32,683 nt of DNA from Candidatus Gastranaerophilales bacterium (GTDB lineage: Bacteria > Cyanobacteriota > Vampirovibrionia > Gastranaerophilales > Gastranaerophilaceae), in contig CALUVE010000023.1 of assembly GCA_944324135.1 (NCBI GenBank), positions 1 through 32,683 of the forward strand, written 5' to 3'. Both the position numbers and the translations under genes were made by a program. Below are positions 30,951 to 32,683 of this stretch, in pieces. Numbering within the stretch: position 1 is the first letter of the stretch; each line of letters opens with the position of its first letter. The notes under the pieces were generated by a model. That model ran no database searches. It was not told the origin of the DNA and saw only the letters and a program-made list of their open reading frames with translations.

Positions 30951-32045
30951 TTAGCCTTTTGTTCCGTGGAATACTCCTCTGAACATTTGTTGTAATTCGT
31001 TCTTATTATCTGAATACATCAACGCAGTTTCTTCAGTAATAAAATCTTTTTCATAAAGCTTGTACAAAGACATGTTCATAGTAATCATACTGTTGAATCC
31101 GCCTTTTTTAACAAGTTCATAAACTTCTTCGAGCTCGTCTTTTTCAATAAAGTCTTTAACAGTCGGTGTAATAATCAACACTTCACAAGCCGGAACACGA
31201 CCTGAACCGGAAGATACCGGAACAAGTTTTTGAGCAACCGTACCTCTTAAAATCTGAGCAAGCTGCTGGCGAACATAGCTTCTATCAGACGGTTCAAACA
31301 TGTTAATAATTCTGTTAACAGTTTGGACAGCATCGTTTGTGTGAATAGTGGCAAATACAAGGTGACCTGTTTCAGCAGCTTTGAGAGCTGAAGTGATAGT
31401 ATCCTTGTCGCGGATTTCACCGATAAACACAACATCAGGGTCTTGACGCAAAGCGTATTTGATACCATCGGGGAATGATGGAGTATCAATAAGAATTTGA
31501 CGTTGTGAAACGATAGATTTTTTATTGGTAAATATAAATTCTACCGGATCTTCAATAGTGATAATATGTTTTTGATAGTTTGAATTAATATAGTCAATCA
31601 AAGATGCGATAGTGGTGGATTTACCGGAGCCTGTCGGACCTGTAATCAAAACCAGACCGTTATTCAGAGTAGAAAACTGCTCAATAGATTGCGGCAGGTT
31701 CAATTCTGTAACTTTTTTAATTTCGTAAGGAATAGTTCTGATAACAAGGGCAGACTTGCCGAGGCAGCGGCTCAAGTTAACCCTGAAACGTGCAACACCT
31801 TTAATTTCGTAAGCAAAGTCCAAATCAAACAGTGCATTAATTTTGCCTTTTGAATGTTTTGGAATCAAAATATCATACGCATCCAGAATATCGTCCTCAG
31901 TCAAAGGCGGCATGTCGATTTTAATAATTCTACCGTCTTTACGAATTGCAGGTCTTTCATCAACTGCAAGGTGAACGTCAGATGCTCCAATAGCAACTGC
32001 TTTTTTCAAAAAACTTACAATATCAAATTTAGTTGTTTCGCCCAT
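30951..32045 (-). CDS. pilT: Type IV pilus retraction ATPase PilT
   Basis: Hexameric cytoplasmic motor that depolymerises type IV pili, needed for twitching and DNA uptake. 364 residues. It has the N-terminal PAS-like domain with ASDVHLAVDERPAIRKDG, Walker A GPTGSGKST (136-144), the Asp box IITIEDPVEF, Walker B PDVVFIGEIRD (Glu210) and the His box ETGHLVFATIHTNDA. The length and the C-terminal helices match PilT rather than PilB. AGAGGA precedes the ATG by four bases. A strong promoter lies upstream. No pilin or assembly gene is in the window. Confidence 0.94.
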   Translation of the reverse strand: MGETTKFDIVSFLKKAVAIGASDVHLAVDERPAIRKDGRIIKIDMPPLTEDDILDAYDILIPKHSKGKINALFDLDFAYEIKGVARFRVNLSRCLGKSALVIRTIPYEIKKVTELNLPQSIEQFSTLNNGLVLITGPTGSGKSTTIASLIDYINSNYQKHIITIEDPVEFIFTNKKSIVSQRQILIDTPSFPDGIKYALRQDPDVVFIGEIRDKDTITSALKAAETGHLVFATIHTNDAVQTVNRIINMFEPSDRSYVRQQLAQILRGTVAQKLVPVSSGSGRVPACEVLIITPTVKDFIEKDELEEVYELVKKGGFNSMITMNMSLYKLYEKDFITEETALMYSDNKNELQQMFRGVFHGTKG

Positions 32046-32071
32046 ACTATCCTCTTCTTACTACTGTTTGA

Positions 32072-32100
32072 ATTATACCATTTTTTACAGCATAAGACAA
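32072..32100 (-). promoter_or_regulatory. Promoter of pilT-recO
   Basis: On the minus strand TTGTCT (32100-32095) and a perfect TATAAT (32077-32072) are 17 bases apart, with the pilT start about 27 bases downstream. Confidence 0.75.
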
Positions 32101-32410
32101 TAATGCGGCAAAAAACTCATAAAAATAGTGGATTTTTGGATGTAACGAATTTGTAACATCTCAAAGAAAAAAAGTAAATTAATTTAGCGAGGAATACTTT
32201 ATATAAATGTAAGGGAAATTAAAAAGGGAAAAATTACTTACGGGAAAAATCAATTCAGTTTATGAATTATATAAACATGAATGAGAAAAAAAGATTTTTT
32301 TTATACTCTCTCTCTTAATATCCTCGTGTTTATTTAATGTTGCCTATTAAAGGCAACTTTTTTTTGCTTTTTGAAAGTTTGGCAACAGGAAAAGTTATTC
32401 TTTCTCTACT
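32101..32410. other. Non-coding region, possible small RNA
   Basis: About 310 bases without a convincing gene. It is AT-rich with GGGAAA repeated three times between 32212 and 32246, where GTAAG (32210-32214) and CTTAC (32237-32241) could pair. It ends in the plus-strand terminator at 32339-32365. The only short frame, 18 codons at 32262-32318, has no ribosome binding site. A terminator with no gene before it suggests a small transcript, but I cannot assign a class. Confidence 0.35.
32339..32365 (+). terminator. Intrinsic terminator without an associated gene
   Basis: GTTGCC (32339-32344), a 7-base loop, GGCAAC (32352-32357) and eight T's (32358-32365). The orientation is plus strand, but no plus-strand gene precedes it in the window. 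Confidence 0.75.
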
Positions 32411-32573
32411 CAGAGGGTTTTGTGGTAAAGAATGACAAAAAACTCTGGTGAAAATCACGCGCCGTCAAAGCGTTGACCTTTTGAATGCTAAAAAGAAAAT
32501 TATCGGCGGCAGGGGGATTTTTCTAAGCCGTTGGCGAGAATGGGTTATTCGAGCCGTACGGATTAGGATGCAG
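32411..32573. repeat. Structured repeat, copy 1
   Basis: It begins with a 13-pair hairpin with two tandem G-A mismatches (32411-32423 with 32435-32447). Then comes a 74-base core (32447-32520) that matches copy 2 with only three differences. The distal part contains the palindrome CCGTACGG and a long-range pair GGGTTA (32542-32547) with TAACCC (32577-32582). The copies are 163 bases apart. Both strands have short open frames but none with a convincing start. Confidence 0.75.
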
Positions 32574-32580
32574 AGCTAAC

Positions 32581-32683
32581 CCAAAGAATTTTTCAACAAA
32601 AAATTCTTTGGTGAAAATCACGTGCCGTCAAAGCGTTGACCTTTTGAATGCTAAAAAGAAAATTATCGGCGGCAACGGGATTT
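32581..32683. repeat. Structured repeat, copy 2 (cut by right edge)
   Basis: A perfect 13-base inverted repeat, CCAAAGAATTTTT (32581-32593) with AAAAATTCTTTGG (32599-32611) around a 5-base loop, leads into the second copy of the core (32610-32683), which continues beyond the window. The core differs from copy 1 at 32623 (T for C), 32675 (A for G) and 32676 (C for G). Confidence 0.8.

Follow-up and report, generated by a model that had tools for sequence, protein, structure and literature searches.

The repeat at the right edge of the window (the whole 32,683-nucleotide stretch of Candidatus Gastranaerophilales DNA that we analysed) is very probably a tRNA-linked foldback repeat. Our joint reading, to which we give a probability of roughly 0.55, is that the right edge of the window holds the distal units of an array of tRNA-linked repeats (TLRs) behind a tRNA-Glu(CTC) gene, and that the units of this array are DNA foldbacks, which would work as single-stranded or cruciform DNA and would have been inserted in trans. 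TLRs were first described in E. coli in 1978, and their function was still called unknown in a 2021 paper (PMC8144298). With the present findings, TLR-like elements are placed in a lineage distant from E. coli, in many species and behind many tRNAs.

Repeat copies and assembly break at the window edge

The window corresponds to the entire contig C23 of a 1.82-Mb genome (G000) that is assembled in 47 contigs. We found two 84-nt copies at its right edge (32437-32520 and 32600-32683), with 93% identity and a spacing of 163 bp, and a recount gave the three differences between the 74-nt core copies that the original prediction had reported. A hairpin had also been claimed before each copy: that of the second copy has perfectly paired arms of 13 nt (32581-32593 and 32599-32611), whereas that of the first is degenerate. 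The compensatory change in the hairpin arms was read again from the sequence (CAGAG/CTCTG versus CAAAG/CTTTG).

Another contig of the same genome, C15 (L002), provides the rightward extension. It starts inside a matching repeat unit, continues with one full unit and then carries a tRNA-Glu(CTC) gene near its start, all on the minus strand, with 84 bp between the tRNA-Glu and the first core. The right window edge is a contig end because of the repeat, C15 starting with an identical unit; since C15 begins in the unit that forms the edge of C23, the window edge is an assembly break inside the tRNA-Glu array. The two contigs hold full units each, plus one truncated unit, and the earlier suggestion of a boundary of a larger array is supported, the window being the distal end of the array behind tRNA-Glu(CTC). 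No gene lies between units in the window. Because the tRNA-Glu gene is on C15, ARAGORN detected no tRNA in the window, and the tRNA link was absent from the original prediction.

The repeat could in principle reflect passive local tandem duplication or an assembly artefact with only two copies, given that the window ends in the repeat and that the genome is in 47 contigs. We consider this practically negligible, as the unit was also found in independent MAGs of other studies and inside long contigs (e.g. G146:C4 and G197:C1). A coding origin had been considered for FSIQKVNALTARDFH and was rejected: what is conserved are the pairing, the boundaries and the tRNA ends, and FSIQKVNALTARDFH is an accidental frame. 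Neither is the core covered by an ordinary gene: no ORF of at least 80 aa, with ends left open, overlapped 32157-32683. A weak match to the Rfam family RsaF at 32330-32439 (22.3 bits, against a gathering score of 60) was taken as chance; it spans a terminator-like hairpin near 32340-32370.

Anatomy of the unit

The units run with the tRNA, on the minus strand. Each full unit opens with 17 nt copied from the tRNA 3' end, spanning T-loop to discriminator, and a trailer separates this copy from a second, inverted one (IRL). An A/T-rich hairpin (P2) comes next, and the unit closes with a conserved core of about 60 nt that has a small and a long hairpin (P2b and P3) and whose junction with the following tRNA-end copy falls inside the T-loop. 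In the window, the first element is the 3' end of tRNA-Glu(CTC) at 32667-32683, where the contig ends; it is either the tRNA's own end or a unit copy, and its sequence recurs unchanged at L002 61-77 and in the tRNA-Glu tail of L002. It is followed by the trailer at 32634-32666 (repeated at 32471-32503) and by the IRL at 32612-32629, in which the tRNA-Glu 3' end and T-arm recur imperfectly and in inverted orientation, and which pairs with the tRNA-end copy in the predicted DNA fold. The IRL of the matching L002 unit scored 10 against its tRNA, whereas tRNAs for other amino acids averaged 5.1. P2 lies at 32581-32611 with perfect 13-bp arms and, in A1, shows compensatory pair changes among relatives. 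The conserved core hairpin (P2b and P3, with a TC/TC internal loop) occupies 32515-32582, scored 93.9 bits with model R1 and 84.1 bits with model R2, and shows covariation.

The core is joined in the T-loop to the next tRNA-Glu 3'-end copy, at 32504-32520. This copy, which belongs to the distal unit of the window, matches the L002 tRNA tail at 15 of 17 nt, compared with 17 of 17 in L002. The distal unit continues on the same strand with its trailer (32471-32503) and its inverted tRNA 3'-end copy (32449-32466), and stops after a degenerate P2 hairpin (32411-32448), without a core; the same ending was found in G204 and G122 (L309 and L111). As single-stranded DNA, the minus strand of the unit at 32504-32633 has a predicted folding energy of -24.9 kcal/mol (z -5.2; none of 200 shuffles was as good), and the predicted fold is a forked hairpin.

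Distribution among relatives

The unit had been suggested to be a dispersed non-autonomous element, and searches with the core agree with this, as we recovered it at a further locus of the same genome and in many relatives. A DNA search detected the unit in 11 of 59 related genomes, weak short matches included. A first covariance model of the core, built from eight sequences and with 4 of its 15 pairs changed on both sides, had matches in 133 out of 383 genomes of the family (E <= 0.01). The order was searched with a second model, built from 91 matches, which at E <= 0.001 detected the core in 128 out of 286 genomes and reached two further families. With this second model, 77 of 386 genomes across the phylum were positive (E <= 1e-4): 76 belonged to the window's family and one to another family of the order. 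The seven genomes that were searched singly contained 3 to 20 cores each.

When 84,980 species genomes (GTDB) were searched for exact matches to the core pattern, 51 loci were returned. Those with informative titles were Gastranaerophilales, Melainabacteria or Cyanobacteria MAGs and the rest were gut MAGs, apart from one Collimonas MAG, whose locus had no tRNA or foldback nearby and was taken as a chance match. The core pattern was also present in one viral contig, beside host-like genes and a tRNA-Thr, which gave no support to an origin from a phage attP. Our searches of the open-licence literature returned no earlier description of the Gastranaerophilales element.

Link to the local tRNA

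We surveyed 105 core matches and dropped one duplicate, leaving 104 distinct cores. A tRNA was located within 4 kb upstream on the same strand for 80 of them (Glu, Thr, Leu, Ser, Pro, Met, Gln, Lys, Arg and Val), and further loci from the pattern search add tRNAs for Ala and Leu(TAG). The remaining 24 had no tRNA within 4 kb; these were partly at contig ends and partly in other repeats. The sequence after the core best matched the end of the local tRNA in 77 out of the 80 units, with a mean score of 16.2 versus 5.7 for tRNAs of other amino acids. In addition, 17-nt tail copies were present downstream on the same strand for 68 out of 112 tRNAs (88 copies), compared with none in the upstream opposite-strand control; the loci for these counts were chosen mostly for carrying a core, and 68 out of 112 is thus not a genome-wide rate. 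The inverted arm is the weaker line of evidence: the local tRNA ranked in the top 5% in only 47 of the 80 units, and the mean score was 9.7 versus 6.4 for other tRNAs, with a forward-orientation control that was barely lower (9.0).

The further locus in the window's own genome lies at tRNA-Val(GAC), where the tRNA end, the trailer and an intrinsic terminator are duplicated around the IRL, P2 and core, and where the unit sits behind that tRNA's terminator. A similar array was observed on the 5' side of tRNA-Val(GAC) (L150 4946-5067 in G000:C12, and L279 in G002:C66), with tRNA 5'-end copies (GGGCGATTAGC), a hairpin and an inverted D-arm-like stretch; in G002 there are five tandem copies with a period of about 111. 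In a raw count, the tRNA ahead of the unit had an anticodon with C in first place for 52 of the 80 tRNA-linked units (for example Glu CTC, Thr CGT, Leu CAG and Ser CGA), and this may reflect a preference for dispensable tRNAs.

Pairing in the core points to DNA

The core is diverse enough for covariation analysis. Among 92 distinct cores, 14 of the 15 pairs had changed on both sides, with 278 both-sided change cells observed versus 71 in shuffles, and the signal was lost when the partners were slid. In 70 distinct sequences out of the 91 rows, the core pairs comprised 954 Watson-Crick, 8 G-T and 10 A-C pairs, and 21 representatives at less than 70% identity gave 269, 9 and 6, respectively. For comparison, 50 tRNAs of these loci had 454, 42 and 0 in their T-stems and anticodon stems, so that wobble differed between core and tRNA stems (Fisher p = 6e-7). 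Between the inverted arm and the tRNA end, we counted 740 Watson-Crick, 6 G-T and 20 A-C pairs and 71 other mismatches, based on 50 of the 80 units (alignment score >= 9, duplicates dropped). Alignments made with covariance models lean towards the modelled structure, but the comparison of G-T with A-C should be unbiased against G-T, because these models accept G-U.

Selection on an RNA should preserve G-U pairs, of which the core has no excess; the simplest reading is therefore that DNA is what folds, either single-stranded or as a cruciform. Judging from the substitution patterns, the constraint probably acts on DNA.

The original prediction had also considered a repeated small RNA, and transcription past the tRNA into a structured RNA, which would act as an sRNA or as a decoy for tRNA processing, has been proposed for RtT and RrB of E. 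coli. Conserved pairing would be expected of such an RNA, and the rRNA-linked TLRs of E. coli are, according to PMC8144298, transcribed sRNAs that bind Hfq and CsrA in vitro, so that an RNA role is possible for those TLRs. We nevertheless regard a structured RNA as quite improbable for the Gastranaerophilales units, as there is no G·U excess, the units often lie beyond the intrinsic terminator of the tRNA, an inverted copy would compete with tRNA folding, and Rfam scans returned no non-tRNA family at the gathering score.

Comparison with E. coli TLRs and other known systems

In PMC8144298, TLRs are defined as lying directly downstream of a tRNA or rRNA gene, with one to five per locus, and their 3' part is an 18-19 bp copy of the 3' end of the tRNA or rRNA just upstream; E. 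coli has 22 of them in ten loci, with 'no known function'. The units of the window array carry a 3'-end copy of the upstream tRNA, are located directly downstream of it and fall within this number per locus, and by this definition the window array is a TLR. It differs from the E. coli TLRs in core sequence and lineage, and its units are most likely mobile or recombining DNA foldbacks.

We examined 13 stretches of the MG1655 genome with tRNA genes, which cover part of the 22 TLRs. Tail matches were found 18 times for 48 tRNAs; several of these were one TLR seen from two tRNAs, which left 12 distinct TLRs, and their copied ends begin in the T-loop. Six of the 12 also contain an inverted T-arm copy upstream (tyrT, two at tyrV, lysV, lysQ and proK), with scores above 300 out of 300 shuffles, while none was found in the argQ, argZ, lysT, lysW, lysY and lysZ TLRs. 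In particular, lysV and lysQ read GATTCGAACCTGC...AGCAGGTT|core|ATCCTGC, following the plan of the Gastranaerophilales unit, and the lysV, lysQ and proK TLRs are located behind intrinsic terminators, as read from the sequence. The E. coli TLRs are similar in that they are tandem units of 80-180 bp, lie behind a tRNA and end in 18-19 nt copied from its 3' end, beginning in the T-loop, but they have no core sequence in common with the window's class. The RtT covariance model (RF00391) matched only E. coli loci (L282) and had no match up to E 1 in the window at 31800-32683. Since the E. coli TLRs are built on a similar plan, the Gastranaerophilales finding offers a test of what TLRs are, and their origin becomes testable: whether they are mobile DNA, and by which enzyme they are moved.

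A second unit class in Gastranaerophilales (L106, L063, L026, L109 and L248) has another core (GGTTCGAGC...CAAGACA|) and the same tRNA-end logic. In the first four loci its layout resembles that of the E. coli TLRs, a resemblance for which we do not claim homology. A TGAG-modified T-loop common to E. coli and class-2 units was rejected as a sign of homology, as it occurred 5 times downstream of Gastranaerophilales tRNAs versus 4 times on the reverse strand.

The unit was also compared with other systems. Like the attC sites of integrons, the core is a site folded as a hairpin with conserved mismatches, and genes lie between like sites in G214 and G066; unlike in integrons, we identified no integron integrase here, the anchor is a tRNA and most units are gene-free. 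The CTX phage has a forked-hairpin attP that is used by XerC/XerD. In a similar way, the fold of our unit would restore a double-stranded target from a single strand, and the element itself supplies no integrase, but the target is the T-arm of a tRNA and not dif, and no phage genome is attached. REP/REPIN and small dispersed repeats are also short, dispersed hairpin elements nested in other repeats, but they differ from our units, which have a tRNA-end copy and a fixed place behind tRNA genes.

Insertion, loss and candidate enzymes

The orthologous tRNA-Glu(CTC) locus is patchily occupied within one genus: the unit was present in G069, G240 and G122, truncated in G204 and missing from G009, G177, G229 and G194. 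Similarly, the tRNA-Val unit of G000 is missing from G001, a genome of the window's genus. Some copies are precise insertions without target duplication. In the tRNA units of the G008 type, the join GGTTC|core|GAGTCC is the T-loop with nothing added or lost. Among the loci examined, we found one empty site GGCCTCGCTTG^TAGAAGTGG and one CTTTAGCCG^AAGAATC; when 17 boundary pairs were compared with these loci, only 1 had an exact empty site. In G008 and similar genomes, the core is also found, with sharp ends (TAC...CAAGC), in palindromic repeats away from tRNAs; at L183, L187, L199 and L201 (G008 and G278), it is inserted in the palindromic repeat GTCATTCTGAG...GAAGAATC, which is common in these genomes. 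At four tRNA-less units (L033, L230, L235 and L240), the left side is replaced, within P2 in three of the four, by another repeat that ends around TAATTTAATCTTGTTCTGTATGTTAAATTAC, possibly a dif-like site or the end of an insertion sequence.

Tyrosine integrases that target tRNA genes cross over in the T-loop and restore the tRNA 3' end. The units might accordingly be scars of integrative elements, with attR-like tRNA-end copies left at the 3' end of the tRNA by phages or islands and the core serving as an integrase arm site. The crossover and the restored 3' end fit this explanation, and so do a 367-aa integrase gene about 850 bp past the G001 array and the genes between identical units in G214. 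However, the units measure only 130-180 bp and have no integrase gene, one and the same core is found with tRNAs for ten or more amino acids and also occurs in non-tRNA palindromes, covariation of the fold is unexpected for a double-stranded arm site, and genomes with 3-20 cores have just two Xer-like tyrosine recombinases; we therefore consider integrase scars unlikely. The integrase gene of G001 is part of a prophage-like region (G001:C4, L102 from 9169 onwards), which starts beyond the tRNA-Glu array.

Among 26 genomes, no dedicated tyrosine recombinase was common to all beyond the Xer-like ones. The core-bearing genomes G000, G008 and G040 each encode just one pair of tyrosine recombinases, whose lengths are Xer-like; in G000, the only two Phage_integrase proteins have 312 and 287 aa.

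The units could also be short mobile hairpins, REP-like or IS200/IS605-like, spread by a Y1 transposase. A hairpin with a conserved internal loop that inserts without target duplication would be in agreement with such elements, and Y1 transposases were found in 6 of 12 core-bearing genomes, including G000. On the other hand, we found none in the core-bearing G001, G262, G030, G160, G146 and G017, and no constant tetranucleotide to the left of the insertions, which leaves spread by Y1 with little likelihood.

In the reading that we prefer, that of trans-inserted DNA foldbacks, the direct copy of the tRNA 3' end, interrupted in its T-loop by the core hairpin of about 60 nt, would pair with the inverted copy, with a second hairpin at the tip, and the unit would act as a DNA single strand or cruciform. 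Insertion of the folded element at the T-loop (TTC^GA) would be carried out by a recombinase or transposase supplied in trans, a step that we propose only tentatively. A copy of the tRNA 3' end would arrive with the inserted element and the tRNA gene would therefore stay whole, while recombination between identical tRNA ends would amplify the units into tandem arrays of 130-180 bp and could trap genes between them. Several observations count against this reading: no recombinase co-occurs with the cores in the genomes searched, the inverted arm is tRNA-specific in only part of the units and missing from six of the 12 E. coli TLRs, just 1 of 17 boundary pairs had an exact empty site, 24 of the 104 cores have no tRNA within 4 kb, and the rRNA-linked TLRs of E. 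coli are transcribed. More speculatively, the TLRs of Gastranaerophilales and E. coli may be one kind of mobile single-stranded DNA element, whose fold rebuilds the tRNA T-arm, which a host recombinase joins to tRNA genes, and which in some genomes collects cassettes in an integron-like way without an integrase of its own. We regard this as rather doubtful; XerC/XerD are named as the perhaps responsible enzymes on the basis that a Xer-like pair is the only set of tyrosine recombinases in some carriers.

Genes between units

In two genomes, the genes interposed between units look like cassettes, judging from their arrangement. If those of the G214 and G066 arrays are true cassettes, tRNA genes would anchor a gene-capture system in common gut bacteria. 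In G066 (contig C29; L052, 14388-16245), the third core is found about 2.2 kb behind tRNA-Glu, and a DUF6613 pilin-like gene and a zeta-toxin-like gene lie between the second and third cores. In G214 (contig C30; L130, 4033-8071), tRNA-Ser(TGA) is followed by three cores, of 62.0 bits each and with tRNA-Ser ends; a 578-aa protein with a Mrr_cat domain is encoded between the first and second cores and a 243-aa ORF is located between the second and third, and PADLOC matches were obtained at this locus.
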